From the NCBI GenBank assembly GCA_000237975.1, contig CP003179.1, positions 3,192,270-3,256,269 on the forward strand: a stretch of DNA of 64,000 bases, given 5' to 3'. This DNA comes from Sulfobacillus acidophilus DSM 10332 (lineage in GTDB: Bacteria > Bacillota > Sulfobacillia > Sulfobacillales > Sulfobacillaceae). Below, in pieces: positions 945 to 46,361 of this stretch. The translations under genes and the position numbers were made by a program. The notes under the pieces are model-generated. The model was not told the DNA's origin, searched no databases, and saw only the letters and a list, made by a program, of their open reading frames with translations. Position 1 is the first letter of the stretch, and each line of letters opens with the position of its first letter.

Positions 945-1130
945 GGCTATCTCCATCTCTTTTAGGGATGTCTTATCAAGAATCACGAAGCATTTGCAAG
1001 TCTTTTGTTTTTAGTTTATCATGCATACGAAGTTGGGTATTGTCCTTGGTGACAAAATCCAAATGGAGATTATTTCCGATATTTTTTGCTAATTTTTTCA
1101 CCACATTGTTTGTTTGACATCCTATGTATC

Positions 1131-1152
1131 TTGGTGGTCCATGCGCCACCAA
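1131..1152. promoter_or_regulatory. Perfect inverted repeat, possible operator of the sugar importer
   Basis: TTGGTGG (1131-1137) and CCACCAA (1146-1152) form a perfect 7-bp inverted repeat with an 8-base centre, 29 bases ahead of the importer start codon. A TTGACA box lies just upstream (1114-1119), though no good -10 sits at 17 bases from it. The position between a ROK repressor and its presumed target suggests an operator or a 5'-leader hairpin. It does not match the classical XylR operator. This is inference. Confidence 0.4.
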
Positions 1153-1180
1153 AACTTCTGAGATAGCGAGGGAGTTATTG

Positions 1181-2479
1181 ATGGGTATTCGGAAGCACGT
1201 TGCCTTAGGTCTCGTCTCGGCGTTGGCGTTAGGCGCTTTGGCCGGTTGTGGCAGCACCTCGTCCACCTCGTCCGCCTCATCCGGTGCCGCTCAATCCAGC
1301 GGCAACCAGCAACTGCAAATTTTCAGCTGGTGGACGGGTGTGGCCAGCAGCAAAGCCCTAAAAGCATTAATTGGGGTATTCAACCAAGAGTACCCGCACA
1401 TTCAGGTCATTAACGAAGCGGTTGCGGGCGGCGCCGGCTCCAATGCCAAAGCCGTTTTAGCCAGTCGAATGGAAGCCGGGAATCCGCCGGGAACGTTCCA
1501 AGTGCACGCCGGCAACGGATCGCTTCTCTCTTGGATTCAAGCCGGCGATATGGCCCCGTTGAATTCTCTTTATCAAAGCCAAGGATGGTATCACGATTTT
1601 CCGAAGAGTCTTCTGAATATGTTGACCGTCAACGGCAAAATTTACGCGGTGCCGGTCGATATGCAGCGGGCCAACGTCCTATGGTACAACCCGAAAATCT
1701 TTAACCAATATCACTTAACCCCACCAACCACCTTCAATCAATTTTTTGCCGACGCCGCCGTATTACAGTCCCATGGAATCACCCCGTTAGCGTTAGCCAA
1801 CCATGGCAACTGGGAAACCACGCTCCTTTATTCCGACGTCCTTTTGGGCACGGTCGGTCCGAAAGAATACACCGCCCTTTTAGACGGCAAAGCGTCTTGG
1901 AATTCCCCCGGGGTTGTGACCGCCACCAATACCTTTTTACACATGATGCAATACACCAATTCCGATTATGAAGCGCTCCACTGGCAACAAGCCGATCAAA
2001 TGGTCGCTCAAGGTCAAGCGGCGATGAATGTCATGGGTGACTGGGCGCAGGGATACTTTACCACGGACTTGCATTTGACACCCGGGACCGGATTTGGTTG
2101 GGCGCCTACTCCCGGAACCCAAGGCACGTTTGCCATGGTATCCGACGTGTTCGGGCTACCCGCCAAACTCTCGAATCCCACCCCGACGCTGGACTTTTTG
2201 AAAGTGCTCGGGTCCCTTAAAGGCCAAGACACCTTTAATCCGTTGAAAGGCACCTTCTCGCCACGGCTGGATGCGGATAAGAGCTTGTATGACGCCTACT
2301 CGCAATCGGCGATGAATTCGTTCAAAAAGGATACGTTGGTCTTAGTCATCGGCCAAGGCGGAGCCAATCCCGGATTTACCCAAGCGTTCGAAAATGCCAT
2401 GGTCAGTTTAGTCAGTTCCCACAACGTCAACCAGTTTATCAGTGCCGTCCAAAGCGCAGCGGCAGCCAATCCCCTCTAA
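1181..2479 (+). CDS. Sugar ABC transporter substrate-binding lipoprotein
   Basis: A 432-residue extracellular solute-binding protein of family 1 (maltose/glucose-type). The start is the ATG at 1181 because GAGGGAG lies at 1168-1174 and because a lipoprotein signal follows directly, with LAGC at residues 20-23 as the lipobox. A Ser/Thr-rich tether follows the lipid-anchored Cys. The mature protein carries family features such as FSWWTG near the N-terminus and conserved Trp-rich binding-cleft segments (GDWAQGYF). It should capture a sugar outside the membrane and deliver it to the permeases at 2540 and 3505. The sequence suggests a glucose/mannose-type binder, but the substrate is not proven. 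Confidence 0.88.
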   Translation: MGIRKHVALGLVSALALGALAGCGSTSSTSSASSGAAQSSGNQQLQIFSWWTGVASSKALKALIGVFNQEYPHIQVINEAVAGGAGSNAKAVLASRMEAGNPPGTFQVHAGNGSLLSWIQAGDMAPLNSLYQSQGWYHDFPKSLLNMLTVNGKIYAVPVDMQRANVLWYNPKIFNQYHLTPPTTFNQFFADAAVLQSHGITPLALANHGNWETTLLYSDVLLGTVGPKEYTALLDGKASWNSPGVVTATNTFLHMMQYTNSDYEALHWQQADQMVAQGQAAMNVMGDWAQGYFTTDLHLTPGTGFGWAPTPGTQGTFAMVSDVFGLPAKLSNPTPTLDFLKVLGSLKGQDTFNPLKGTFSPRLDADKSLYDAYSQSAMNSFKKDTLVLVIGQGGANPGFTQAFENAMVSLVSSHNVNQFISAVQSAAAANPL

Positions 2480-30319: not shown

Positions 30320-31261
30320 ATGCCTTTCTGGAAAAAGAGCGTGGGTCTTGTTGTCACGGTCACGGCCGGTCTTTTGGCATTGACCGGTTGCGGCGGTACC
30401 TCGTCGTCAACCGCGGCGGCCCCACCGGCCCCGCTTCACCTGACCGATGACGTAGGCCACACGATTACCCTCACCCACCCGGCCACGCGTATCGTAGCCC
30501 TCGAACCCAGCAACACGGTGATTGCTCTGGAATTAGGGCTAAAACGGGATTTGGTCGGTATCGATCAGGAATCTTTTCAGTATACGCCGAGCCCTTGGAA
30601 CCACCAGTTATCCGGATTAAAAAGCATCGGAGCGTCTTATCCCGGAATCAGTACCGAACAGATCGTCGCCGCCCGTCCGGATTTGGTCCTGGCGACAACC
30701 GGTATTCATGGACTATCCAGTCTCAGCCAATTTCATATCCCCGTGTTAACGTTGAATCCCACGAATATTAACGGGGTGTACCATGATATGCTGCTGGTCG
30801 GTCAGGCGACCGGGCATGAATCCCAAGCCGAGGCCGTGATTCACCAGATGCAGCATCAAATGGCCCAAATTGAAGCCCAAGTGGCCAAAACCAAGAACCG
30901 CCCGACCGTCTTTTATGATCTGGGCCAACTGTACACGGCCGGTCCCGGCACGTTCATCAATTCCTTAATTGAGCTGGCGGGCGCAAAGAATGTCGGCGCC
31001 GCCTTATCCACTCAGGAATGGCCGCAAGTGACCGCGGAACAAGTGGTCAAGGCCGACCCGTCAATTATTCTGATCGACTCCGGGGCGGGCGAAACCGTCG
31101 CTCAAGAAGAACGACAAGCGGGTTTTGATGCCATTAGCGCCGTCAAAACCGGTCATGTCTACGAGCTGCCGAACCCGTCGTACGTCAACGAACCGTCGCC
31201 GGCGTTGGTCATGGGCCTGGAAGAACTGGTCCATATCTTCCATCCGCACGTCAAAATTTAG
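30320..31261 (+). CDS. btuF: Cobalamin/siderophore-type substrate-binding lipoprotein (BtuF-like)
   Basis: A 313-residue periplasmic-binding-protein-like lipoprotein of the FecB/BtuF class. The lipobox LTGC is near residues 21-24, followed by a Ser/Thr/Ala linker and DDVGHTITLTHPATRIVALEPS, the standard start of the domain. The GAGAAGG ribosome binding site at 30305-30311 fixes the ATG at 30320 and is the likely riboswitch-controlled site. It captures vitamin B12 or a corrinoid outside the membrane. The cobalamin riboswitch makes a B12 substrate much more likely than an iron-siderophore. It leads a btuF-btuC-btuD operon. Confidence 0.88.
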   Translation: MPFWKKSVGLVVTVTAGLLALTGCGGTSSSTAAAPPAPLHLTDDVGHTITLTHPATRIVALEPSNTVIALELGLKRDLVGIDQESFQYTPSPWNHQLSGLKSIGASYPGISTEQIVAARPDLVLATTGIHGLSSLSQFHIPVLTLNPTNINGVYHDMLLVGQATGHESQAEAVIHQMQHQMAQIEAQVAKTKNRPTVFYDLGQLYTAGPGTFINSLIELAGAKNVGAALSTQEWPQVTAEQVVKADPSIILIDSGAGETVAQEERQAGFDAISAVKTGHVYELPNPSYVNEPSPALVMGLEELVHIFHPHVKI

Positions 31262-33061: not shown

Positions 33062-33137
33062 TTCTTCCTAAATGGCCTGGCAGCGCACGCTGTCCCGCTA
33101 TAATTTTAAGAGGAGCAGAAACGTTGGAGGTTTGGCC

Positions 33138-34364
33138 ATGGACGGCTTATTGACGGTGTCAATGATTGTCAAAAACGAAGAAATCTTTTTGCCGCGGTGC
33201 CTCGAATCGGTTCAAGGGGTGGCCGACGATATTGTCATCGTGGACACCGGTTCCACCGATCAAACGCTGGCCATTGCCCATCAATTCGGCGCCCGAACTC
33301 GTCAAATCGAATGGCCCAACGATTTTGCAAAAGCCCGGAACGTCTCGTTAGAGATGGTGCAAACCCCGTGGGTACTGGTCATGGACGCCGACGAGGTGCT
33401 GGTTGCCGAGGACATACCCCGGCTTGAAAAAGCCATCAAAGAACCCTTTGCCGACGCTTATAACATCCGCATCGTGTCATTAGCCAATAAGGCGGAAAAC
33501 ATTAGCGAAAGCTATGTCGCCCGACTCTTTCGACATGTCCCGGGGATTTTTTGGGAAGGTAAAATCCATGAACAAATCATTCCGTCCCTTATTCGGGCCA
33601 AATTAACCCTCATGCAATTAAACGTGCGGTTGCTACACTATGGGTACATGGACGGGGTAAGTCACGAACGGAACAAGGGAGAGCGCAACCTCCAATTATT
33701 ATTGGAAGCCTTAAAAGACAACCCGAAAGATGCCTATCTTACATGGCAGCTTAGTCAAACCTATCTTGGACTTAACCGTTCCGAAGAAGCCCAAGCCATG
33801 GCCCGCAAGGTATTTAAGCTGATAACGCCGGATAGTCCGTTTCACCCGTTAACCTATGTTTTATTGGCCAAGGCCTATTGGCAAGGTAATCGCCCCCGTA
33901 AAGCCTTAACCGTACTCGAGGAGGCTGCCTTTCAATATCCCACGTTTACCGATCTCTTTTTTTTACAGGGATTGATTCGGACCCACCTTAAAGAATGGGA
34001 CAAGGCTCTTTACGCTTTCCGCCAATGCCTCAAATTAGGCGAGCCGCAGGGATTTTTGATTACCGAAACCGGTGTCGGGAGCTTTAAGGCGCTTTTCCGC
34101 ATTGCCCAATGCCATACGAATCTGCATCAAACCAAAGAAGCTCTTGCTCACCTATTGATGGCCATCAAAATACAACCAACGTTCCGTGAAGCCTGGCAGC
34201 TCTTATTTCTCTTATTTAACGGCCGACCTATCGAAGAGTTGGCGCAAACCGTCCAAATGGTTCTGACCGCCCCTCAAATTGCCGCCGCATTTTCCACTTG
34301 GCCTGAGCGCGATGCCAATGAAGAGGCCCTCGTCCGCTACATTGGCTCCCTATCCGTCTCCTGA
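33138..34364 (+). CDS. Glycosyltransferase family 2 with tetratricopeptide repeats
   Basis: A 408-residue protein. The N-terminal half (about 1-200) is a GT2 catalytic domain with the start LLTVSMIVKNEEIFLPRCLESV, DTGSTDQT and the metal-binding MDADEVL. The C-terminal half (about 210-400) is built of TPR-like repeats (for example DAYLTWQLSQTYLGLNRSEE and CHTNLHQTKEALAHL). The ATG at 33138 is preferred since TTGGAGG lies upstream. This two-part architecture is common in GT2 enzymes that modify proteins or glycopeptides. Because flagellin genes lie just downstream, a role in flagellin glycosylation is plausible. Confidence 0.85.
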   Translation: MDGLLTVSMIVKNEEIFLPRCLESVQGVADDIVIVDTGSTDQTLAIAHQFGARTRQIEWPNDFAKARNVSLEMVQTPWVLVMDADEVLVAEDIPRLEKAIKEPFADAYNIRIVSLANKAENISESYVARLFRHVPGIFWEGKIHEQIIPSLIRAKLTLMQLNVRLLHYGYMDGVSHERNKGERNLQLLLEALKDNPKDAYLTWQLSQTYLGLNRSEEAQAMARKVFKLITPDSPFHPLTYVLLAKAYWQGNRPRKALTVLEEAAFQYPTFTDLFFLQGLIRTHLKEWDKALYAFRQCLKLGEPQGFLITETGVGSFKALFRIAQCHTNLHQTKEALAHLLMAIKIQPTFREAWQLLFLLFNGRPIEELAQTVQMVLTAPQIAAAFSTWPERDANEEALVRYIGSLSVS

Positions 34365-34568: not shown

Positions 34569-35000
34569 TTATCCCGAAAAATTGACGGTCATCTTTTGCT
34601 CCGACGTTTCCTCCAAACGGGTCGGATTTCCCTGGCGTCCTTGAATAAAATGTTTTAGCCCGTCAATCAAGTGACCTACGACCTCGATGACCGGATCAAG
34701 GTCCTCTGCCCTATGTGACGTTTGCACAAAGGCTACCGTGCGCCAGCAATATAAATAGAGATTCGTCATCGTATCGGCATGCGGATGCTCGGGATTTACC
34801 GTCTCCGCTAACCCCGCAAAAATATCTTGGGCTAATCGCCCATGGCGGACCGTTAAATCCCACTTTTGAGCGCGGATGGCATTCTGACACTCTCGTAGTC
34901 CCTTCAACGCAGCCTCATATAGCATTAAACCCAACTCCTCCGTACTGGCGGTATGGATTTTTGCCATCTGGTAGCGTAATAAGGCCTCTGGATTATTCAT
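34569..35000 (-). CDS. fliS: Flagellar chaperone FliS
   Basis: A 143-residue FliS, the chaperone that binds the flagellin C-terminus in the cytoplasm. The conserved start region NNPEALLRYQMAKIHTASTEELGLMLYEAAL (residues 3-33) and the helical body with LYLYCWRTVAF identify it. The ATG at 35000 is chosen because AGGAGGG lies 9 bases upstream; an in-frame GTG at 35006 is too close. The fliD stop is 6 bases away. It is highly charged in the normal way, unlike the exported flagellar proteins beside it. Confidence 0.92.
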   Translation of the reverse strand: MNNPEALLRYQMAKIHTASTEELGLMLYEAALKGLRECQNAIRAQKWDLTVRHGRLAQDIFAGLAETVNPEHPHADTMTNLYLYCWRTVAFVQTSHRAEDLDPVIEVVGHLIDGLKHFIQGRQGNPTRLEETSEQKMTVNFSG

Positions 35001-35005
35001 CTCCA

Positions 35006-36475
35006 CTACCCTCCTGACTGGCTATTTGAATTAGGACTATATAAGTTCGTAAGCAATTGGTTTTCCGATGCTGCCGAAGTAATGGCATTTACCCACTGGC
35101 CATATTCGGTAATCGCTTGATTTTGAAGAGCCACTAATTGATTATCCGCCATGGTCATGTTACTTTGGGCTTGCGCAACCTCCGTTTGAAGTTGTGCTAT
35201 AGCCTCTCCGGTCGTGCTATTCGTTCCGTTCTCAAACCCGTTGAGGATGGTCGATACGGCACCGGATATTGCCTCGAAAACATTTTGTACCGCGGTAGGA
35301 TTACTGTTCAAGGCCGCTTGCAAGGTCGCTTGATTAAGCGTCATCGTGCCATTATCGGATGAGCTGAAAGTAATCCCTAAATCGGCCAACGACTGATAGG
35401 GATTAGAACTTAACGTCGTATTACCGTACCATTGCCCCAACGATGCTTCGACCTGATTCATTACCATAACCGGGATAGGAGAAGTCAGAACCTGATTCGG
35501 GTTTACCTGAAAGTTTGCCGCACCCGTTTGCAGACCCGCTCCAGGCATAGTGGATAATGCCAGGTTTTCGGTATCCTTGACCCACTGGTTCCAATCATTA
35601 ACAAACGATTGGACGTTCTGAACCATCGCAGAAGTGTCCGGCCCTATCGTTATTGTCGTCGTGCCCGTGCCCACTGCACTCAAGGTCACCCCTGGGATCG
35701 CATTCGTGATCGCATTATTATTGCTAAAGTCGATAATATTAGATGTATTGGATCCGAATTGAAGGGTCCCAGGACTTGCGGCTTGAAGAACGACCGAGCT
35801 TAGCTTTGCCCCTGAACTATTCACAAAGCCTAGGGTGTAAAGAGGATCCGACGATCCGCCATCGGCATAGTAAATCGTCTGATCGGTTTGATTAGCTTGG
35901 ATTTGTAAGGTATATTGGCCGCTTGCCGGCGACACGACGGTAGCTGTCACGCCCATATTCGCATTATCAATAGCTTGTGCGATTTGGTCCAACGTTTCGC
36001 CGGATGTCACGCTAATCCATGTCGAGGACGACGTGGGCGCCGATCCTAATTGGATGCTAAAACTTCCGGTAATGCCTAGAGCCGTGGTAGGGCTTGAAAT
36101 TGCACTGGGTGGTTGCCCTTGGTCAAGCTCCGCGGCGGCTAACGAGTCGACTTGTATCGAGTAAGATCCCGACTGTGCACTGCCGTCTACCGCCACGTTA
36201 TTAATGACCTGAGTATTACTCGATGTCCCGGATAATTGTTGATAAGTCGTCGAATCCGTCAACGTCGTTAAGCTGGATAATACCGCGGCGGCATCGCCTT
36301 TCAGGGTAGTCCACGCGCTTTCCTGTGCCTGAAAAGAGTTCACTTGATTATTTAATGTCGTTATTTGTTGCTGTACCCCTGACGTCATCAGTGCCTCGAA
36401 TTGTTGCAAAGACATATCGTTCAACAATTGGGCAATGGGATTATTACCAAATAAGCCTCCGAGATTTATCGCCAC
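35006..36475 (-). CDS. fliD: Flagellar filament cap protein FliD
   Basis: A 489-residue filament cap protein. The N-terminal FliD domain (residues 1-100) has coiled-coil character (MSLQQFEALMTSGVQQQI), and the C-terminal FliD domain begins near 230-250 and ends in a coiled coil (AQAQSNMTMADNQLVALQNQ). A count of the translation shows three Lys and no Arg in 489 residues, a striking depletion. It lies 66 bases after flagellin, with a perfect hairpin between them, and 6 bases before fliS. It caps the growing filament and folds flagellin on the outside of the cell. Confidence 0.93.
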   Translation of the reverse strand: MAINLGGLFGNNPIAQLLNDMSLQQFEALMTSGVQQQITTLNNQVNSFQAQESAWTTLKGDAAAVLSSLTTLTDSTTYQQLSGTSSNTQVINNVAVDGSAQSGSYSIQVDSLAAAELDQGQPPSAISSPTTALGITGSFSIQLGSAPTSSSTWISVTSGETLDQIAQAIDNANMGVTATVVSPASGQYTLQIQANQTDQTIYYADGGSSDPLYTLGFVNSSGAKLSSVVLQAASPGTLQFGSNTSNIIDFSNNNAITNAIPGVTLSAVGTGTTTITIGPDTSAMVQNVQSFVNDWNQWVKDTENLALSTMPGAGLQTGAANFQVNPNQVLTSPIPVMVMNQVEASLGQWYGNTTLSSNPYQSLADLGITFSSSDNGTMTLNQATLQAALNSNPTAVQNVFEAISGAVSTILNGFENGTNSTTGEAIAQLQTEVAQAQSNMTMADNQLVALQNQAITEYGQWVNAITSAASENQLLTNLYSPNSNSQSGG

Positions 36476-36503
36476 CGAAAGACCCTCCTTCCGTCTCGAG
36501 CGA

Positions 36504-36528
36504 TTCCGGGCGGTTAACCCGCCCGGAA
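36504..36528 (-). promoter_or_regulatory. Hairpin between flagellin and fliD
   Basis: TTCCGGGCGG (36504-36513) pairs with CCGCCCGGAA (36519-36528), a perfect 10-bp stem. It follows the flagellin stop on the minus strand. No T-run follows, so it is probably a processing or stabilising structure and may allow much flagellin mRNA with limited fliD expression. Confidence 0.55.
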
Positions 36529-36541
36529 CCTTATCCGCCGG

Positions 36542-37720
36542 TTATCCCAACAGTTTCAACACTAATTGAGGTAGTTGCTGAGCCGTTTGGAGAGCCTGAA
36601 TACCTGTTTGAGCCAATATCTGTTCTTGGGCAAACTGACTGGTTACCGAGGCCATGTTAGCATCCATGATCGTGGACCGCGAGGCCTGCAGATTGGTGGT
36701 CTCGGTTTGCAGGTTACTAATCGTGGTATTGATCTGATCCAGGTTAGCCCCCACTTGCGACTGGGCATTGCTTAAGATGGCCAGCGCATTTTGGGCCTGT
36801 GTGATCGCATACTGAGCACCGCCCTGAGACGTTACGTTGATGGTGCTCAACCCTAAGGACGCGCTGTTAAAGTTACCGAAGTTAACCGTCATGGTGTCCG
36901 GCGTGGCATTATTGGGACCGGTCTGAAACTCTAACGTCGATTGGGCCGACACGCTAAAGTTCGCGCCTACCGGTCCAGTGGCCGTTTCCACATCATATTG
37001 GTTGACCTGAACGACAAACGAAGTGGTCGCCGTGCCCGCGTTGCCACCGGCAACCACTTGAAGCGAAATAGCCGAGGTCGTATTAATGTTGGTAATACTT
37101 GCCGCCGCCACAGTGGCTCCGTTCTGATAAACCGTAACAACATCGATGTTGCTGACGCTGACCCCGTTAATGGTCGCACTCGAAACAAATTGCACACTGA
37201 CCGAATACGCACCGGATACGGCCGCGCCTGAGTCCGAACCCAAATACACATTCGTAACCCCGGCGGAACCCGTAGCGGCCACATTCGCCGTCTGGGCTCC
37301 GTACTGCCCTCCGAGCACAACTTCGTTGTTGTAGGAAAGATTCTGGGAAACATTGTCCAGTGTTGCTAAAAGTTGCGTAATTTGATCTTGAATCGCCTGC
37401 GTGTTCTGGGCGTTGTTAGTGCTGTTGGACGCTTGAGTCGCTAGTTGCTGAATTTGTTGCACAATCTGGATGTCGGTCTGGATACCCCCATTAGCCACAT
37501 TCAACAAATTCGACGCCTCATTGGCATTGGACAGTGCTGCATTGGTACCGCCCAACTCGCCCGTCATGAGGTTGGCAATGGCTAATCCGGAAGGATTGTC
37601 GGCAGGCGAGTTGATTTGTAAGCCGGTCGACATCTCCTGTTCGATTTGTTGCAAGGTGTTGTTCGTCTGATAAAGCGCATTCTGCGCAAAAAGCGCAGGC
37701 ACATTGGTATTGATGATCAT
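36542..37720 (-). CDS. hag: Flagellin
   Basis: A 392-residue flagellin. The conserved D0/D1 ends are clear: MIINTNVPALFAQNAL with STGLQINSPADNPSGLAIAN (N-terminal) and QVGANLDQINTTISNL with ANMASVTSQFAQEQILAQTG (C-terminal). The centre is Ser/Thr/Asn/Ala-rich. The whole protein holds one Lys (near the last residues) and one Arg, and no Cys, an extreme basic-residue loss that fits exposure at low pH. AAGGAGGAT (minus strand, 37734-37726) is the ribosome binding site. The protein is secreted through the flagellar type III channel and polymerises into the filament. Neighbouring glycosyltransferases suggest glycosylation. Confidence 0.95.
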   Translation of the reverse strand: MIINTNVPALFAQNALYQTNNTLQQIEQEMSTGLQINSPADNPSGLAIANLMTGELGGTNAALSNANEASNLLNVANGGIQTDIQIVQQIQQLATQASNSTNNAQNTQAIQDQITQLLATLDNVSQNLSYNNEVVLGGQYGAQTANVAATGSAGVTNVYLGSDSGAAVSGAYSVSVQFVSSATINGVSVSNIDVVTVYQNGATVAAASITNINTTSAISLQVVAGGNAGTATTSFVVQVNQYDVETATGPVGANFSVSAQSTLEFQTGPNNATPDTMTVNFGNFNSASLGLSTINVTSQGGAQYAITQAQNALAILSNAQSQVGANLDQINTTISNLQTETTNLQASRSTIMDANMASVTSQFAQEQILAQTGIQALQTAQQLPQLVLKLLG

Positions 37721-37873: not shown

Positions 37874-40093
37874 ATGCGGATTTTGTGGGAAGGCCCAGTA
37901 TATCGTCCCTTAAGTCTTGATAAAATCAACCGGAATTTGTGCCTGCAAGGCCTCGCCCACGGCCATGAAGTGATTGTCCGACCAACGGAACCGGCTTCAC
38001 CCGACACCCCCCCGGACGAAGGATCCTTAGCCAAAATCAAACCCATTCTCGGAGGCTACGAACCCGCAGATTGGCATGTCCGCCATATGTGGCCACCCTA
38101 TTGGAGCAACCGGTGTGGGCCGTTGATTCTCAATCAACCGTGGGAATTTGGTGTTATTCCCGATCAATGGATCGAGCCGATAAGGCACCGGGTAGCTAAA
38201 CTCATCGTGCCTTCGCATGCCGTTCAAGAAATGTTTCTGGAATCGGGTATCCCCCGGGAAAAAATCACTGTCATCCCTAATGGCGTTGACCCCTCCATTT
38301 ATCATCCGTACGGGCCGACTGTCTCCTTGCCGTTACAGCATAAGACGGTATTTCTATGGGTTGGAGGGTTTCTCCCGCGAAAGGGGCTGGATATCTTAAT
38401 TAAGGCCTATCTGAAAGCATTTCACAAAAATGACGATGTGCTCCTGTTAATTAAAGCGGTAGGCCTTAAAAGCGCCTACAAAGATACCCTATTCCCCCCA
38501 GAACTTGTTGATGCGCTGAATAATCCCAACGCGCCTCCGATCAACCTGATTCATCAAGATCTGGACGAAATGCAAATGGCGGGCCTCTATCGATCGGTCA
38601 CCGCATTGATTTCCCCGTATCGTGGGGAGGGCTTTAACCTTCCTGTCCTAGAAGCTATGACCACCGGATGTTTGGTTGCGGCCAGCGATACGAATCCAAC
38701 GAACGAATTTGTTCCCGACCACGTGGGATGGCGTATTCCGGGAACTCGCCAATATTCCGCCGTAGAATATTCCACCAAGCCGGGCTGGCAGTTTGAGCCG
38801 AACCTTGAGGGTTTGATCGAAGTTCTACGGACGATCGCCAACCTTTCTAGAGATGAACGGAATCGGCGGAGCGAAGCCGGAAGACACTGGGCTTTACAAC
38901 GTTATTCATGGGAACGAATATGGCAAGGTTGGGAAGAGGTATTACAAGATCCCCCGGTGAAAAATCACTGGTTCTTGGCATCGCCTCCGCCAAATCACAT
39001 CATCTGGCATGGACCGATCCGTAATGCTTCCGGATATGCCGCAGAATCCCGGGCATTTCTGAAAGCCCTGCCGGCCACCGGCATTTTACCGCGTATTATC
39101 GATGCTAGCGGCATGCAAAAAGATAGCGTTACGCCGGAAGAAGAAACCTTTTTACGCGCTTTAGAACAAATTCCGGTGAGCCGCAACACCCTCGCGATTC
39201 ATAGCGTACCGGCCTGGGGCGCCATCAGACGCCGCCAAGGGGTCGACCTTATCCGAACCATGTTTGAGACGAACGCAATTCCTGAAGAATGGCCTAAGAT
39301 TTTAAACAATTTCCCGGGGGTTATTGTACCGAGTCAATTTAACCGAAATACGTTTATTGAATCCGGAATCTCTGATGAGAAAATCTTTATTACCCCTAGC
39401 CCGGTCAACACGGATTTATATCGTCCCCCGACAAACCCAAAACCGGGTAACCGTCTAAAATTTATTTCCATTTTCGATTGGATCGATCGGAAAGGTTGGG
39501 ATGTGCTTATTAAGGCATGGATTTCCGCATTTACCCCGAACGATCCCGTTCAACTAGTCATTAAGACGACACGGATAGCCAATCAAACGGCCGATCCCCG
39601 ACAAGCCATCGTAAAACTCGTCGAATCCCAAGGCTATCACATCGACCATATCGCACCCATTCAAGTCATAATCGAACAATGGACAGAACCCCAAATTGTC
39701 GCTTTTTATCAAGCTGCCGATGTTTTTGTGCTACCGACCCGCGGTGAAGGATGGGGTCGACCAATTCTCGAAGCTATGGCAACCGGTCTATTGGTTATTG
39801 CAACAGATTGGAGCGGTCAAACCGATTATTTAAACTCTTCCAATGCACTCCCTCTCAAAACCAAGGGGATTAGACCTGTTCCGGTTAATACCGATATGGC
39901 CGTTTTGAAAGGACAGATGTGGGCTGAACCGGACGTCGATCATTTAATTGAATTATTGAGATGGAGCCGAGACCATTTTTCGCACACCGAAAATATCCGC
40001 CGTCAAGCACGCCTGACCGCCGAATTGTATCACCCTACGAAAGTGATTATACAATTGGTCGAGGTGCTTGCCCAATTTGGCATCCAGGTTTAA
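37874..40093 (+). CDS. Tandem two-domain glycosyltransferase (GT4-GT4)
   Basis: A 739-residue protein of two GT-B glycosyltransferase units in tandem. The first (about residues 1-365) has IPREKITVIPNGVDPSIY and the E-x7-E motif in RGEGFNLPVLEAMTTG. The second (about 370-739) begins HIIWHGPIRNASGYAAESRA and has RGEGWGRPILEAMATG. GGGAGGACA precedes the ATG at 37874. It is divergent from flagellin and convergent with the GDP-sugar gene at 40090 (4-base overlap). Both domains look active, so it could add two sugars in turn. A role in flagellar or surface glycan synthesis is inferred. Confidence 0.88.
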   Translation: MRILWEGPVYRPLSLDKINRNLCLQGLAHGHEVIVRPTEPASPDTPPDEGSLAKIKPILGGYEPADWHVRHMWPPYWSNRCGPLILNQPWEFGVIPDQWIEPIRHRVAKLIVPSHAVQEMFLESGIPREKITVIPNGVDPSIYHPYGPTVSLPLQHKTVFLWVGGFLPRKGLDILIKAYLKAFHKNDDVLLLIKAVGLKSAYKDTLFPPELVDALNNPNAPPINLIHQDLDEMQMAGLYRSVTALISPYRGEGFNLPVLEAMTTGCLVAASDTNPTNEFVPDHVGWRIPGTRQYSAVEYSTKPGWQFEPNLEGLIEVLRTIANLSRDERNRRSEAGRHWALQRYSWERIWQGWEEVLQDPPVKNHWFLASPPPNHIIWHGPIRNASGYAAESRAFLKALPATGILPRIIDASGMQKDSVTPEEETFLRALEQIPVSRNTLAIHSVPAWGAIRRRQGVDLIRTMFETNAIPEEWPKILNNFPGVIVPSQFNRNTFIESGISDEKIFITPSPVNTDLYRPPTNPKPGNRLKFISIFDWIDRKGWDVLIKAWISAFTPNDPVQLVIKTTRIANQTADPRQAIVKLVESQGYHIDHIAPIQVIIEQWTEPQIVAFYQAADVFVLPTRGEGWGRPILEAMATGLLVIATDWSGQTDYLNSSNALPLKTKGIRPVPVNTDMAVLKGQMWAEPDVDHLIELLRWSRDHFSHTENIRRQARLTAELYHPTKVIIQLVEVLAQFGIQV

Positions 40094-40983
40094 TTGACGG
40101 ACGTTAAAATGTCTTGGAGCGTTTTCTCCCACGGAATACGCGGTCGCCAACCGGAAATCCGCTCGAACCGGCGAGGGTCCCCAATCAACACGGGGACCTC
40201 CTGAGGGCGGTATCGTTGAACATCTTGTTCAACCACCAAATCCCGTCGGTTACTAAGGCGAACCAAATCATGTAAAATCTCTTGAAGACTTCGCCCAACA
40301 CCCGAACACAAGTTATATACGCCGGAAATTGTTGGCGACTCGATGGCCCAAGAATACGCCGAGACCACATCCCGGACATCAAGAAAATCACGAATAACCG
40401 ACAAATCTCCCACGCGAATAATCTTGGTGGCGGGGTTGCGAATTTGATGAACAAATGAAGGAATCGCAAAAGCTGGAGATTGTCCCGGGCCGATATGGTT
40501 GAACGGACGAAAAATGGTGAGCCGAGGGGATTGACCGCTAGCCCCTTGTAGCTGGGTTAATAATTGTTCCACAGCGGCTTTGGATATACCGTAAGGATTT
40601 TTTGGCCGCATAGGCATCTCTTCCGAAAGGGGTTGACTTCCATAACTACCGTAGACTTCGGAAGAACTGATATAAATAAAATGTTGAATCGGCAAGCCGC
40701 GAATCGCTTCCCACAAGTTTAACGTGCCTAAAACATTCACGGCAAATGTTGATTGAGGGTGGGTCCAAGAGTGTTTAACGGAACTTTGTGCCGCCAAATG
40801 AATGATAACCTCGGGAATAACCGGCTCCAGGGCTTGTGCCACTTCCGACGGATTCAACAAATTCACTGGACAGTTAGCCGCAGCCGGTCCGCACCACTCG
40901 ATAATGTGATGACCTCGATCACGCAATACCAACTTCAAATGTTGTCCAACAAATCCGTCTGCTCCCGTCATCAGGATACGCAA
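40090..40983 (-). CDS. GDP-6-deoxy-4-keto-hexose reductase (NAD-dependent epimerase family)
   Basis: A 297-residue extended SDR. The nucleotide-binding GADGFVGQHL is at residues 7-16, the Ser/Tyr/Lys catalytic set is in YISSSEVYGSYG (near 108-119) and PYGISKAA (near 132-139). Its close coupling to GDP-mannose 4,6-dehydratase (20 bases upstream) suggests GDP-4-dehydro-6-deoxy-D-mannose reductase (Rmd type), which makes GDP-D-rhamnose. Other 4-ketoreductases (for GDP-talose or GDP-fucose-like sugars) remain possible. Confidence 0.82.
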   Translation of the reverse strand: MRILMTGADGFVGQHLKLVLRDRGHHIIEWCGPAAANCPVNLLNPSEVAQALEPVIPEVIIHLAAQSSVKHSWTHPQSTFAVNVLGTLNLWEAIRGLPIQHFIYISSSEVYGSYGSQPLSEEMPMRPKNPYGISKAAVEQLLTQLQGASGQSPRLTIFRPFNHIGPGQSPAFAIPSFVHQIRNPATKIIRVGDLSVIRDFLDVRDVVSAYSWAIESPTISGVYNLCSGVGRSLQEILHDLVRLSNRRDLVVEQDVQRYRPQEVPVLIGDPRRFERISGWRPRIPWEKTLQDILTSVN

Positions 40984-41003
40984 TCATTAGCCCTCCACAT
41001 CCT

Positions 41004-42002
41004 CTATTGCCTAAGCGGCTGATGCAATGCGGTGCCCCCATGACGGGCAACCAAATTGATATCCGCCTCAACCATTAATTGGATTAATTGGTCAAATGTG
41101 ATGCTCGGCTGCCAACCTAAATTCTTGCGTGCTTTTGACGCATCGCCAATTAATAAGTCGACCTCGGCAGGACGAACCAGTTGAGGATCCAATTTCACAT
41201 ATTGTCGATAATCGAGGCCCGCCATCTGAAAGCTTTTTTCTACCCATTCTCGAACGCTGTGAGTTTCTCCGGTCGCCAACACATAATCGTCGGGTTGATC
41301 CGCTTGCAACATGCGCCACATACCTTCAACATAGTCCGGGGCATAACCCCAATCCCTTTGGGCCTCCAAATTACCGAGTCGCAATTCATGACGAAGTCCG
41401 GCTTTGATTTGAGCCACGGCATACGTCACCTTGCGTGTCAGAAACTCCAATCCGCGTCGAGGAGATTCATGGTTAAATAATATGCCAGAACATGCAAACA
41501 GACCATAACTTTCCCGGTAATTGACCGTAATCCAGTGCCCGTATAATTTGGATACCCCATAAGGACTTCGCGGGTAGAACGGCGTCGTTTCGTTTTGAGG
41601 CACGCATTGGGCCTTTCCGAACATTTCACTGGTAGATGCTTGATAGAAACGGATACGAGGGTTGACGTCCATAATCGCATTCAATAGACGGGTCACCCCA
41701 AGAGCGGTTACCTCACCGGTTAAAATCGCCTGGCTCCAACTCTCGGGAACAAACGATTGGGCCGCTAAATTATAAATTTCGTCGGGACGGGTTTTTTCTA
41801 TAATTTGACGGAGGGATCGCTCGTCTAACAGATCTCCAGACACCAAGTGCAGCCGATCCGACAAATGATTAATCCGCTCGGTTGGTGTGGTGCTTGTCCG
41901 TCGAATGATTCCATAGACGGTATAATTTTTTTGGAGGAGAAGCTCTGCCAGATACGATCCGTCTTGACCGGTAACACCTGTGATTAGGGCCGTTTTGGCC
42001 AT
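41004..42002 (-). CDS. gmd: GDP-mannose 4,6-dehydratase
   Basis: A 332-residue extended SDR. The N-terminal [19 protein letters not shown] (residues 5-23), [13 protein letters not shown] (near 80-92), the catalytic Tyr-Lys in [15 protein letters not shown] (near 142-156) and [15 protein letters not shown] (near 177-191) are all hallmark segments. It turns GDP-D-mannose into GDP-4-keto-6-deoxymannose using bound NADP. It is followed by the reductase and preceded by a methyltransferase on the same strand, forming a deoxyhexose set next to the flagellar genes. Confidence 0.95.
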
Positions 42003-42059
42003 TCCCTACCCACCTCTCAAATTTACTGACTGTAGACTCGCGTGTAATATTGCGCCAAG

Positions 42060-42737
42060 TTATCGAAGAGTTTCTTTATATGCGATAACCGCATAGTCTT
42101 GTGGACCATATAACCATTGATTTAATACGTGAGCGTTGGGAACGGAAAGAGGCACTTGCATATGTTGGGGGACCGGAGAAAAATATTCAATCGTCGACGA
42201 TGAGAATCCCGCTTCGGAAACCATAAACTGCAAAAGCTCCGGAGGTAGAGGAAGAACGTGAGTCGGATCGTACGCAAAATGGTTCCAGGCCCATAATGAT
42301 GACACATTGACGGTTTCAAAGATAACCATTCCCCCGACATCAAGTGCATCAAAAGCGAGATTCAGAACTTCCCAAACCATGGGAGCCGTCCAATGTTCCA
42401 ATACTTGAAAAGCCGTGATGACCGAAAAGGAATGGGCCGACTGACTGCGAAGAAATTCCAACGCATCACGGCAAACCACATGGAGTCCCTGATTTTTGAG
42501 GTTTTCCGCTAACAGGGGATTAAGCTCGATACCTATAGAAGATATTTTGGCCGCATTTAAGACCGTCAACCATTCTCCCCGACCGGATCCAATATCCATC
42601 ACAGGCTTTTGAAGAACATTGTAAACCTCTTGAACTCTGGTTAAATATCGGGATTCCTGATCCTGCCTAATCCTCTCAACCGGTCCCCGAAATTGATCCG
42701 CCAGCCTGTTCATCAATTCATCCCATGATTTCGCCAT
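42060..42737 (-). CDS. Class I SAM-dependent methyltransferase
   Basis: A 225-residue methyltransferase. The SAM-binding motif VMDIGSGRGEW is near residues 46-56, the acidic loop IGIELNP near 68-74 and the post-I VITAFQVLEHW near 105-115. The remaining helices (for example FAYDPTHVLPLPPELLQFM) are common in sugar or lipid O-methyltransferases of glycan clusters. A Gly-rich ribosome binding site lies upstream within a GC-rich stem (CCCCCC at 42744-42749 and GGGGGG at 42762-42767). It leads the methyltransferase-gmd-reductase run and may methylate the deoxy sugar. Confidence 0.82.
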   Translation of the reverse strand: MAKSWDELMNRLADQFRGPVERIRQDQESRYLTRVQEVYNVLQKPVMDIGSGRGEWLTVLNAAKISSIGIELNPLLAENLKNQGLHVVCRDALEFLRSQSAHSFSVITAFQVLEHWTAPMVWEVLNLAFDALDVGGMVIFETVNVSSLWAWNHFAYDPTHVLPLPPELLQFMVSEAGFSSSTIEYFSPVPQHMQVPLSVPNAHVLNQWLYGPQDYAVIAYKETLR

Positions 42738-42804
42738 CCGTATCCCCCCATGACCAGTGTAGGGGGGGCACTATCAAAACGCCAAATGACAAGCACGCTT
42801 TAAA

Positions 42805-44985
42805 TTAATTTTTGCCGGGTTCAATCATCACCTTAATCGGTCCCTCACGTTGGACCACATTGGCATAGGTGATGCCACGGCCACGAGCGAATTCGATGGA
42901 AAGGGTGCCCCCGGCGATGTGCAGGCGATCGAGATAGAGTTCGTTGATCCACGGCGGCAACTCCGGTTGCTGAATCCGGACTTCGTGGCCATGCACGGTA
43001 ATCCCGAGCCAAAGCCGTAACAGAAAGAAAGGAACCGCCGCCGACCAGGCTTGGGGGTTACACGCCACCGGATATTGCACAGGCCCGGCTCCGGCTCGGC
43101 GGGTAAATCCGCAATAGAGTTCCGGCAGGCGCCCTAAGGGAAAGAATTGGGCCGCCTCGTATAATTGCTGGGACAGCTGCATGAGTTCCTTAATGGCTCC
43201 CTGAGTCTTTAAGCCCCAGGCAATAATCGCGTTATCGTGCGGCCAGACCGACCCGTTATGATAGCTCATCGGGTTATAAAAGGGCGCGCTTTGGGCCAAC
43301 GTACGAATCCCGTACCCTGACACCATGTCGGCCTGAAAGAGCCGCCGAATCACCTGACGCGCTTCCGTTGGCGTTAGAATACCGGTAAATAACAGGTGGC
43401 CTTCGTTGGACGTTTTCGCCCGAATGGGCCGCTTTTTTCCATCGAGGGCATACACTAACGCCTTATCCGGCCCTTGGATAAAGCGGTCCATAAACCGCTC
43501 GCGAAGCGCGCGGGCTTGTTCTAGAGCCCACTCGGCCCGCTCGGTGTCCCCTAACGCCCGAAAGAGCTCCGCCGCTTTTTTCATCGCATCATAGGCATAC
43601 CCCTGTACTTCAATCAGCGCGATTGGCGGTTCGGCCAACTGCCCCTGCTCATCCATGACCGAATCAAAAGAGTCTTTCCACCCTTGGTTTTCCAATCCTA
43701 CGGCCGAACGGCGGAGATATTCCAATAATCCGTCGCCGTCTCGGTCCCCATAACGGACCACCCATTCGGCCGCCCGGATGAGCGGCTCGGCCAGTTCTTT
43801 CAGAAAATCCAATCGGTTGGTAAAGCGATAGGTCTCATACACGGCAATCAGCCACCAAAGCGTACTGTCTATCGATCCGTAATAGGGGGTATGAGGGATT
43901 TCACCAGCCCCTGCCAGCTCTCCTTGGCGGAACTCATGAAGAATTTTACCAGGTTCCTCGTCCCGCCAATCGTTGAGGGCTTGACCCTGCAGCTTGGCCA
44001 AAAATCGTAAACTCTCTTCCGCAATGGTCGGCGTCAACAACAAGGTCTCAATGCCGGTGATCGCCGCATCACGCCCAAACGGCGCCACATACCAGGGAAT
44101 CCCGGCGTCAATAATGCGACCCTCGGGATACGTGGTCATCAACGCCCGCATGTCATCGGTCGCCTGCCGGAGCATCTGGTTATAGACCCGGTTGTCCGTT
44201 TCAATCGCGGTACACTGATCGCGCCAATCCCTCACCGCCCGGGCTTGGCGTAACGCCGCCCAAGTAAAATGCCGGGACAAGGGTACCGGGGACAGCCCCG
44301 CGCCGGCGCCAAGCTCCGCCGCCACCGAAAAATAACGATAGACTTTCGTCCGGGGATGTAAGATGACGTGAAAGACGGCTTCCAAAAATTGATCGACAGG
44401 ACGCCAACCATCGGGTTCGGGGTCGATGACGATGCGAGTGGTTCGCAGTCGATCGTCCAAACCGGCATAGCGAAACATGGCCTCATGTTGGTCGGTTTCA
44501 ACCCCTAACGCAAATCCGCGCCGGGTCCTTTCTACGACGCCCCGAATCTCGAAGATATCCCGAAAATCGGCGGCAAACCGAAACCTGACCGTCAAAGGTA
44601 CCGCTTCTCGAGAAAAATTCATCATCCGCACCCGGGCATAAAGCCGGTCGGCAACGACCAGCGTGAGACGGAGATGAAGCGTATGGGCCAAGATGGAACG
44701 TCCTTCGATCACCATGTCGGGATTGGTCATATCGATTTGGGCACGGTTCATATGATAAATGGCGGAAGACAAAACGACCGGGCGTTCGTCCTCGAGCCAC
44801 CATTCAATCCCGTTTAAAAACCGGGTATCCCGAAAATAGAGTCCGGCTTCCGGCGAAGGCCCGTGCCCGTCCGCGGGTTGGACCAGAAAGAGGGGGCCGT
44901 CCTTTAAGACGATTAACCCCCCGTCATTTCCCACCTCGAGTTGTCTGGGTCCGCCAATCGGTTCAGGGCGCCACCGGCTGGTCAT
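42805..44985 (-). CDS. Amylo-alpha-1,6-glucosidase-like glycoside hydrolase
   Basis: A 726-residue protein of the glycogen-debranching/GH family with an N-terminal beta-rich domain (residues 1-270, with GLYFRDTRFLNGIEWWL) and a C-terminal (alpha/alpha)6 domain (about 280-700) with IPWYVAPFGRDAAITGIETL and SYHNGSVWPHDNAIIAWGL. The central Asp/Glu cluster near residues 390-430 (GDRDGDGLLEY) is probably catalytic. No signal peptide is seen. Its start overlaps the GT4 gene by 23 bases. Members act on alpha-glucans or alpha-glucosides. The pairing with a GT4 enzyme suggests a shared alpha-glucan or glucosylated solute, but the true substrate is unknown. Confidence 0.82.
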   Translation of the reverse strand: MTSRWRPEPIGGPRQLEVGNDGGLIVLKDGPLFLVQPADGHGPSPEAGLYFRDTRFLNGIEWWLEDERPVVLSSAIYHMNRAQIDMTNPDMVIEGRSILAHTLHLRLTLVVADRLYARVRMMNFSREAVPLTVRFRFAADFRDIFEIRGVVERTRRGFALGVETDQHEAMFRYAGLDDRLRTTRIVIDPEPDGWRPVDQFLEAVFHVILHPRTKVYRYFSVAAELGAGAGLSPVPLSRHFTWAALRQARAVRDWRDQCTAIETDNRVYNQMLRQATDDMRALMTTYPEGRIIDAGIPWYVAPFGRDAAITGIETLLLTPTIAEESLRFLAKLQGQALNDWRDEEPGKILHEFRQGELAGAGEIPHTPYYGSIDSTLWWLIAVYETYRFTNRLDFLKELAEPLIRAAEWVVRYGDRDGDGLLEYLRRSAVGLENQGWKDSFDSVMDEQGQLAEPPIALIEVQGYAYDAMKKAAELFRALGDTERAEWALEQARALRERFMDRFIQGPDKALVYALDGKKRPIRAKTSNEGHLLFTGILTPTEARQVIRRLFQADMVSGYGIRTLAQSAPFYNPMSYHNGSVWPHDNAIIAWGLKTQGAIKELMQLSQQLYEAAQFFPLGRLPELYCGFTRRAGAGPVQYPVACNPQAWSAAVPFFLLRLWLGITVHGHEVRIQQPELPPWINELYLDRLHIAGGTLSIEFARGRGITYANVVQREGPIKVMIEPGKN

Positions 44986-46156
44986 GTGATATCTCCACTC
45001 CCGTTGCCGCTAATAGAATGCTTTCGGTCTCTTTGACCATGCGTTCCGCCGTAAACCAATCCCACACGCGTTGCCGCGCACCGGCCGCCAACCGGGCGGC
45101 CAGCGGGCGATCGGTCAAGAGCGTTTTCAGCGCCTCGGCTAACGCCTCCGGATGATTCGGATCCACGATCCACCCGCTTTGGCGATGTCGGACAATTTCC
45201 GGCATCCCACCGGCACGCGTGACGACAACCGGTTTTTCCCGCGCCATCGCTTCAATCACCACAATCCCAAAGGGTTCGGGAAATACCGACGGATAGACGA
45301 CGACATCGGCGGCGTCATACGCCGCCCGAATTTCCGGCCACTGAAAAGTATATATGCCAACATGCTCTTCGAGGTGATATTCTCGAATTTTGTCCTGGAT
45401 TTGCTGGATCTCGCGATTTTGCACACTATCCCAGTCGACCGTGAGACTCGTGCCCGCCAACAGGAGATAGGCGTCGGGGACATATTGCCGTACCAGCCGA
45501 AACGCTTCCACGACCACTAACGATCCTTTCGCCAGACTCATGCGTGCGGGATGAAAAATCACCGGTCGCCCTTTCATCGCCGCAAACACATATTGCGGGT
45601 TAGGGGGCTCTTGCAGCCAATCGGTCGTCACCCCATGATGCACGACCCGCATTTGGTCACGGGCATAGCCCCATTCCACCATGTCGTCGAGCGTGTGTTG
45701 ACTGACCGCAATCACCGCATCGTAAGCGGGCGCATATTGCGCCATCTGCTGAAACAACGCGTCATGCCAACTGTTGTGGGCGGTCAGCACCAGGCCCCGT
45801 CCGTGATGCCGATTCCACGCCAATACCGCTTCTAAGGGGATAGGAGAAAAGTAGTGCCAATTATGCACGTGGATCACATCCGGGTTGACCCGCGACAAAA
45901 ATTCGCCGATTTCGTTGAACAGATCGGTCGCCTTTTCCTCAAACAGTTTCGGTGACATCCGATTCAAATCCAATAAGGACGTGCGGTAGACCGGCATGCC
46001 TTTCACCACGGATTTAGCCGGTAGCCCCCCTGGTTGTCCGGTTAACAACGCGACCTGATGCCCTCGCTGAACCAACGCCGGTCCCAAAATCGACAGATGG
46101 GTCTCCACCCCACCAATTGTCGGGGGAAAAGCCCAATGCAATTCGGCAATGCGCAT
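44963..46156 (-). CDS. Glycosyltransferase family 4
   Basis: A 397-residue GT-B glycosyltransferase. The N-terminal MRIAELHWAFPPTIGGVETHL is typical of GT4, VIHVHNWHYFSPI lies near residue 98-110 and the E-x7-E motif is in EPFGIVVIEAMA (near 290-301), followed by VTRAGGMPEIV. The ATG at 46156 is fixed by GGAGGTG 8 bases upstream. It has no membrane anchor. It overlaps the debranching-type hydrolase gene, so the two are translationally coupled. The donor and acceptor cannot be named from sequence. Confidence 0.9.
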   Translation of the reverse strand: MRIAELHWAFPPTIGGVETHLSILGPALVQRGHQVALLTGQPGGLPAKSVVKGMPVYRTSLLDLNRMSPKLFEEKATDLFNEIGEFLSRVNPDVIHVHNWHYFSPIPLEAVLAWNRHHGRGLVLTAHNSWHDALFQQMAQYAPAYDAVIAVSQHTLDDMVEWGYARDQMRVVHHGVTTDWLQEPPNPQYVFAAMKGRPVIFHPARMSLAKGSLVVVEAFRLVRQYVPDAYLLLAGTSLTVDWDSVQNREIQQIQDKIREYHLEEHVGIYTFQWPEIRAAYDAADVVVYPSVFPEPFGIVVIEAMAREKPVVVTRAGGMPEIVRHRQSGWIVDPNHPEALAEALKTLLTDRPLAARLAAGARQRVWDWFTAERMVKETESILLAATGVEISHDQPVAP

Positions 46157-46361
46157 TTGGCTGACACCTCCACACAATCCTTCCTCTAGCCGTAGTCTTA
46201 TTCCGTTAAGGTCGTTCGAATTCCGTCGGATTTTCGAACACGGCAAAACTAGGACGCATGGTAACATGCCCCCTCCTGCCCCGAACTAACCATCTTTAGA
46301 AATTTTGGGAAGAAGGCGGGGATCAATCCCCTTCTGTCTGGTATTTTATGGACCACCGCGG

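Follow-up and report, generated by a model that had tools for sequence, protein, structure and literature searches.

The flagellum of Sulfobacillus acidophilus DSM 10332 is likely an ordinary bacterial flagellum that has been stripped of charge, as an adaptation of its permanent external parts to acid. In the axis proteins that are assembled outside the membrane, most or nearly all lysine and arginine (K+R) and about half of the aspartate and glutamate (D+E) are gone, and glutamine and asparagine (Q+N) are the main gains. The stretch analyzed here (the window) comprises 64,000 nucleotides of a genome of 3,557,831 bases on two contigs. Within it, fliC, fliD, and fliS form a single row on the minus strand:

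36542..37720, minus strand: fliC, flagellin, 392 amino acids (Pfam Flagellin_N and Flagellin_C domains and an AlphaFold model)
35006..36475, minus strand: fliD, filament cap, 489 amino acids (Pfam FliD_N and FliD_C)
34569..35006, minus strand: fliS, cytoplasmic flagellin chaperone, 145 amino acids (Pfam FliS), used as an internal control

All Pfam matches for Flagellin_N/C, FliD_N/C, and FliS exceeded their cutoffs, and FliC scored 96.8 bits for Flagellin_N and 49.7 bits for Flagellin_C. The AlphaFold model of FliC (m2d91c8f8b880; mean pLDDT of 80) has long paired N- and C-terminal helices (D0/D1 core) and an outer beta domain and compares to core filament flagellins in the PDB with a TM-score of ~0.8 (normalized by target). 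In fold, Pfam families, and fliD and fliS neighbors, this flagellin resembles those of Salmonella, E. coli, and B. subtilis, but the latter contain ~7 to 9% K+R, and Salmonella filaments disassemble in acid, with wild-type filaments depolymerizing in 50 mM HCl (PMC6637544).

By translation, FliC contains 1 Lys, 1 Arg, 0 His, 10 Asp, and 9 Glu residues (0.5% K+R, 4.8% D+E, and 23% Q+N), compared with ~8% K+R in the rest of the phylum and ~11% D+E normally, and FliD contains 3 Lys, 0 Arg, 0 His, 18 Asp, and 12 Glu residues (0.6% K+R; 30 D+E). This recount was identical to the original prediction, which gave one Lys and one Arg for FliC and three Lys and no Arg for FliD and had also called the neighboring FliS normally charged; FliS has 5 Lys and 9 Arg residues (14 K+R; 9.7%), an ordinary charge. 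Chance is excluded as a cause: even with a base rate of 7.5% K+R, about what flagellins usually contain, the probability of finding ≤2 K/R in 392 residues is P = 3e-11, and that of finding ≤3 in 489 residues is P = 3e-13.

As a same-genome control, we used 284 open reading frames (ORFs) of ≥200 amino acids from sampled stretches (~300 kb, along with the window and the flagellar gene cluster). These ORFs were split by signal peptide with a crude rule, and from that split we draw on just the values for lipoproteins and the ranking of flagellar proteins. Equal depletion in cytoplasmic proteins, named beforehand as evidence that would speak against acid adaptation, was looked for, and cytosolic ORFs were normal (median of 10.5% K+R; 193 ORFs). 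The six lowest K+R contents among the 284 ORFs belonged to FliC, FliD, FlgE, FlgK, FlgF, and FlgL. The cytosolic flagellar proteins FliG, FliM, FliI, and FliS of this genome had 13.2, 12.2, 11.6, and 9.7% K+R, respectively.

The depletion first noted for FliC and FliD held for both, but it was not confined to those two genes, since FlgE, FlgK, FlgL, FlgD, FlgF, FlgG, and FliE were depleted too. Axial proteins were identified by Pfam, and FlgB and FlgC were identified from Flg_bb_rod matches together with position and sequence. The K+R contents (E. coli K-12 values in parentheses) were 0.5% (7.2%) for FliC, 0.6% (7.1%) for FliD, and 0.7% (3.0%) for the hook cap FlgD; 1.7% (4.5%) for the hook protein FlgE and 1.7% (6.2%) and 2.6% (8.2%) for the junction proteins FlgK and FlgL; and 2.3% (6.8%), 2.9% (5.4%), 4.3% (7.5%), and 5.0% (9.4%) for the rod proteins FlgF, FlgG, FlgC, and FlgB. 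The depletion is thus graded, from 4 to 5% in the proximal rod (FlgB/FlgC) through 1.7 to 3% in the distal rod and hook to ~0.5% in the filament and cap. FliE (L084:16115-16408) had no K/R among its 97 residues and ~1% D+E (6.7% K+R in E. coli K-12). It is located at the rod base yet lacks K/R, a misfit with a simple distance gradient.

Two other groups of proteins bear on exposure as such. The peptidoglycan-binding part of MotB in this genome had 7% K+R, and the lipoproteins of the sampled stretches had ~5%. Since these proteins meet the same acid and are far less depleted, location outside the cell is insufficient by itself, and we propose that membership in a polymer is an extra factor beyond exposure. 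The solute-binding-type lipoproteins in the window (1124-2479 and 30320-31261) also had ~5% K+R, about half of the usual content, which is the same trend in a weaker form.

A bias in codon usage or base composition, or a saving of nitrogen, could in principle lower K+R in the absence of any selection on charge. However, fliS and the remaining genome use Lys and Arg freely, and Gln and Asn substitute for the lost residues, such that nitrogen per residue is 1.24 versus 1.27 in E. coli FliC. With fliS normal and nitrogen per residue about equal to that of E. coli FliC, we regard this explanation as refuted and its probability as vanishingly small.

The original prediction had proposed comparing the K+R contents of FliC and FliD with habitat pH, and the expected drop was seen again in acid-living species, known by name, from other lineages. 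Among the Sulfobacillales, each of the 25 flagellins measured contained 0.26 to 2.54% K+R, whereas ~80 flagellins from the remaining phylum contained 3.8 to 11.2% (median of ~8%; Mann-Whitney P = 1.5e-13). Sulfobacillales FliD proteins mostly had 0.4 to 2.2% K+R, while their FliS proteins had 7 to 11%. In a scan of named species, which was seeded with Sulfobacillales flagellins and so favors low-K/R sequences, flagellin K+R was 0.82% in Acidithiobacillus ferriphilus, 0.81% in At. ferrivorans, 0.90% in Sulfoacidibacillus thermotolerans, 1.9% in Acidocella, 2.3% in Acidisoma silvae, and mostly 2.7 to 4% in Eremiobacterota metagenome-assembled genomes. Normal flagellins from the same scan came from Sporolactobacillus (5.8%), Leptolinea (7.0%), the alkaliphile Alkalicoccus (7.4%), and Clostridium thailandense (9.8%). 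FliD broadly paralleled flagellin, with 0.93% K+R in At. ferrivorans, 0.58% in Sulfoacidibacillus, and 7 to 12% in Leptolinea, Alkalicoccus, and C. thailandense. Growth optima have been given as pH 1.9 to 2.4 for Sulfobacillus thermosulfidooxidans and pH 2 to 3 for At. thiooxidans (PMC11318048) and as pH 2.5 for At. ferrivorans (PMC10050440).

Nearly all Acidithiobacillales flagellins had 0.8 to 2.0% K+R. Two outlier genomes had 6 to 7% (L242 in G248, 7.1%; L272 in G304, 6.1%) and are perhaps neutral-pH members of the order. Alicyclobacillales and Acetobacteraceae flagellins were each divided into low- and normal-K+R sets. We also looked for the same depletion in many neutral-pH flagellins, the second kind of counterevidence named in advance: neutral-type flagellins ranged from 3.8 to 11.2% K+R and unselected gammaproteobacterial flagellins from 4.0 to 10.8%, and E. 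coli FliC had 7.2%. The acidic residues fell as well, with D+E contents of 4.8% in S. acidophilus flagellin and near 2% in Acidithiobacillus, versus ~11% in normal flagellins. Three flagellins of the same phylum (L014, L037, and L108) had ~5% K+R and 19 to 23% D+E, an opposite pattern that is expected of alkaline or salty habitats. Adaptation to heat was rejected as an explanation, because a flagellin from another order of the same class has 7.8% K+R and that of the cold-tolerant At. ferrivorans has 0.81%; the cluster of the 7.8% flagellin is presumably Thermaerobacter-like. At the level of sequence, removal of charge recurs in acid-living lineages, and the link to acid comes from the named species.

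One Acidithiobacillales genome (G292), from a bacterium with an outer membrane, was followed along the whole axis. Its K+R contents were 0% for FlgD, 0.8% for FliC, 0.9% for FliD, 1.7% for FlgL, 1.7% for FlgE, 2.0% for FlgK, 3.1% for FlgG, and 4.9% for FlgF, while the periplasmic parts stayed at 6 to 8% (FlgC, 7.1%; FlgB, 7.6%; FliE, 6.7%; FlgI, 7.4%; FlgH, 6.2%). Depletion in this genome therefore starts at about the place where the structure exits the envelope. The same genome has two separate sets of flagellar genes (C1 1245284-1266532 and 1938132-1952941), and each set encodes a FlgL and a FliK of its own along with a low-K/R flagellin.

Low-K/R flagellins occur independently in Sulfobacillales, Acidithiobacillus, Sulfoacidibacillus and relatives, and Acidocella/Acidisoma, and a single origin was rejected. 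A flagellin tree was built from the conserved ends of the protein (92 rows), with <2.4% K+R taken as clearly low and >4.4% as clearly normal. On this tree, the low/normal state required at least three changes, and forcing all low-K/R rows into one clade was rejected (AU P = 3e-56). These results bear on the possibility that one odd flagellin lineage spread among acid dwellers by common descent or transfer and that its composition is an inherited quirk on which selection never acted. Two features of the tree fit such a history: the low-K/R flagellins of iron-oxidizing Acidithiobacillus and acidophilic Acetobacteraceae, which belong to two proteobacterial classes, fall in one strongly supported clade, resembling transfer, and Sulfobacillales flagellins lie close to the low-K/R flagellins of Alicyclobacillales. 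The rows of the cross-class clade are L201, L218, L178, L213, L199, L216, and L217 (At. ferriphilus/ferrivorans and acidophilic Alphaproteobacteria). The clade suggests that an acid-type flagellin may have been transferred between Acidithiobacillus and acidophilic Acetobacteraceae, but this transfer is itself not firm, as forcing Acetobacteraceae into one clade was not rejected (AU P = 0.09), and transfer among acid dwellers would in itself point to selection. Moreover, besides rejection of the single clade and the need for at least three changes, the trait is common to flagellins as diverged as 30% identity, and FliD and the hook and junction proteins show the depletion too. We therefore consider inheritance without selection very unlikely. 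On this tree, the low-K/R state had at least three origins or acquisitions, a number that is approximate because shared composition can draw such sequences together on a tree.

The original prediction had attributed the depletion to adaptation of surface-exposed proteins to low pH. That cause is supported by the contrast within the genome and by the recurrence in acidophiles, and a physical reason can be suggested from calculated charge. With textbook pKa values, the net charge at pH 7 was -17 for both S. acidophilus FliC and E. coli FliC, while at pH 2 it was +2.8 for S. acidophilus FliC versus +36.4 for E. coli FliC. Flagellar filaments pack roughly two subunits per nanometer. With an external pH of around 2, protonation would neutralize Asp and Glu and leave charge on Lys and Arg alone, such that a normal flagellin would carry ~+30 to +36 per tightly packed subunit, and the filament would be pushed apart by self-repulsion, like the filaments of neutral bacteria in acid. 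Removal of the basic residues would leave each subunit near zero charge (~+3), and the filament could remain assembled. In the least supported step, sugars added by neighboring glycosyltransferases may hold the neutral filament soluble. We infer that acid stability is the property that was selected.

The depleted axial proteins are all exported through the type III route, and the same pattern might arise if an inverted (inside-positive) membrane potential restricted the type III machine to chains with few positive charges. Such an inverted potential is mentioned for acidophiles (PMC10050440). Against this idea, FliK and FlgM pass through the same channel and have 5.9 to 12.9% and 8 to 10% K+R, respectively, in acidophiles whose FliC is near 1 to 3%, and FlgB and FlgC, also type III exported, have 7 to 8% in Acidithiobacillales. 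Neither FliK nor FlgM had a Pfam match in the S. acidophilus genome, where we have a FliK candidate assigned by position only, with 14.1% K+R. Because FliK and FlgM are exported but not axial and are normally charged in other acidophiles, a limit on export is largely ruled out and, in our judgment, very unlikely; the pattern argues instead for adaptation of the permanent external parts.

Removal of K/R could also leave extracellular trypsin-like proteases without cutting sites. No surface protein is more exposed or more abundant than the filament, and trypsin sites are exactly what vanished. Trypsin-like cutting does not, however, predict the fall in Asp and Glu (4.8% in S. acidophilus FliC and ~2% in that of Acidithiobacillus, versus ~11%), neutral bacteria encounter such proteases as well and retain K/R, and trypsin-like enzymes have poor activity near pH 2. 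We find protease resistance a highly improbable cause. Since D+E is half or less of normal, charge in general is reduced, and not basic charge alone.

Three sites in fliC bear on which basic residues go and which stay:

37586..37624, minus strand: RINSA-type motif GLQINSPADNPSG, FliC residues 33 to 45, with Gln replacing Arg (from the codons)
36677..36679, minus strand: codon of Arg348, the sole arginine of FliC (from the residue count)
36554..36556, minus strand: Lys389 codon, within the VLKLLG sequence at the C terminus of FliC (from flagellin comparison)

Loss of the basic residue from the RINS motif, as originally described, holds for this flagellin but not as a universal rule: among low-K/R flagellins, some from Sulfobacillales and many from Alicyclobacillales retain K or R there. 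The Lys near the C terminus is the sole basic position common to all 12 of the 12 Sulfobacillales flagellins compared. K/R occurred within the last six residues in 35 of 40 low-K/R flagellins versus 25 of 35 normal ones; because a C-terminal K/R is usual in normal flagellins too, a separate function for this position is probable. The survival of this Lys where all other basic residues go may be a pointer to positions that matter.

The fliC-fliD-fliS row is flanked by two glycosyltransferase genes:

33072..34364, plus strand: GT2 glycosyltransferase with TPR repeats, convergent neighbor of fliS, putative flagellin glycosyltransferase
37874..40093, plus strand: two-domain GT4 glycosyltransferase, divergent neighbor of fliC, putative glycosylation gene

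Where fliD and fliS were both located in a Sulfobacillales genome, the order fliC-fliD-fliS is mostly the same; a GT2-TPR homologue adjoins the row in most Sulfobacillales loci, and the two-domain GT4 gene is present at several Sulfobacillales fliC loci. Next to fliC in the loci of Acidithiobacillus, Acidocella, and Sulfoacidibacillus, no homologue was found. The region from 37874 to 46267 of the window contains the GT4 gene, two GDP-mannose-dehydratase/epimerase-type genes, a methyltransferase, a glycogen-debranching-type enzyme, and a GT4. Together with 33072-34364, this region is a candidate flagellin glycosylation island. Glycosyltransferases beside a flagellin stripped of charge recall the pili of Sulfolobus, in which few charges go with heavy glycosylation.

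That external proteins of acidophiles may be poor in basic or charged residues is already well known from pili (PMC7347861, PMC11016768) and from certain enzymes (PMC6172347). The type IV pili of Sulfolobus/Saccharolobus have ~1.5% charged residues, versus ~10% in a neutral-pH Pyrobaculum pilin, and are Ser/Thr rich and heavily O-glycosylated, which has been read as acid adaptation (PMC7347861). They are likewise external acidophile filaments with very few charges, but the archaeal pilin has another fold and export route and a hydrophobic core; in the flagellum described here, K/R alone is nearly absent (D+E is about half of normal), and a multiprotein axis is depleted. PilV of At. thiooxidans has 4 Glu, 2 Arg, and 1 Lys, and the purified protein is stable across a wide pH range (PMC11016768). 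It too is a charge-poor surface filament protein of a bacterial acidophile, but that case concerns one type IV pilin, which was compared neither between lineages nor with other parts of an assembly. The acid-stable alpha-amylase of Alicyclobacillus acidocaldarius has 6.4% H+R+K, a reduction in basic residues for which repulsion of positive charges was invoked; the maltose-binding protein of the same species, cited in the same review, shows the opposite trend (PMC6172347). As a secreted acidophile protein with fewer basic residues, the amylase has been given the identical explanation, but it is a soluble enzyme and its reduction is mild. In the open-access literature, we found no report of K/R-poor bacterial flagella, of a gradient along the axis, or of recurrence across lineages.

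These findings would give a simple answer to how a protein polymer many micrometers long holds at pH 2, namely, by dropping the residues that stay charged, and the pattern distinguishes permanent external parts from merely exported ones. As a tentative generalization, for which we see somewhat less than an even case, the outer flagellar axis of extreme acidophiles may be nearly charge-free, with a K+R loss that sets in at exit from the envelope and deepens tipward, that had several origins or acquisitions, and that would let FliC and FliD K+R gauge the pH at which uncultured bacteria live. Flagellin K+R would then be a sequence marker of acid life that can be read in metagenomes.
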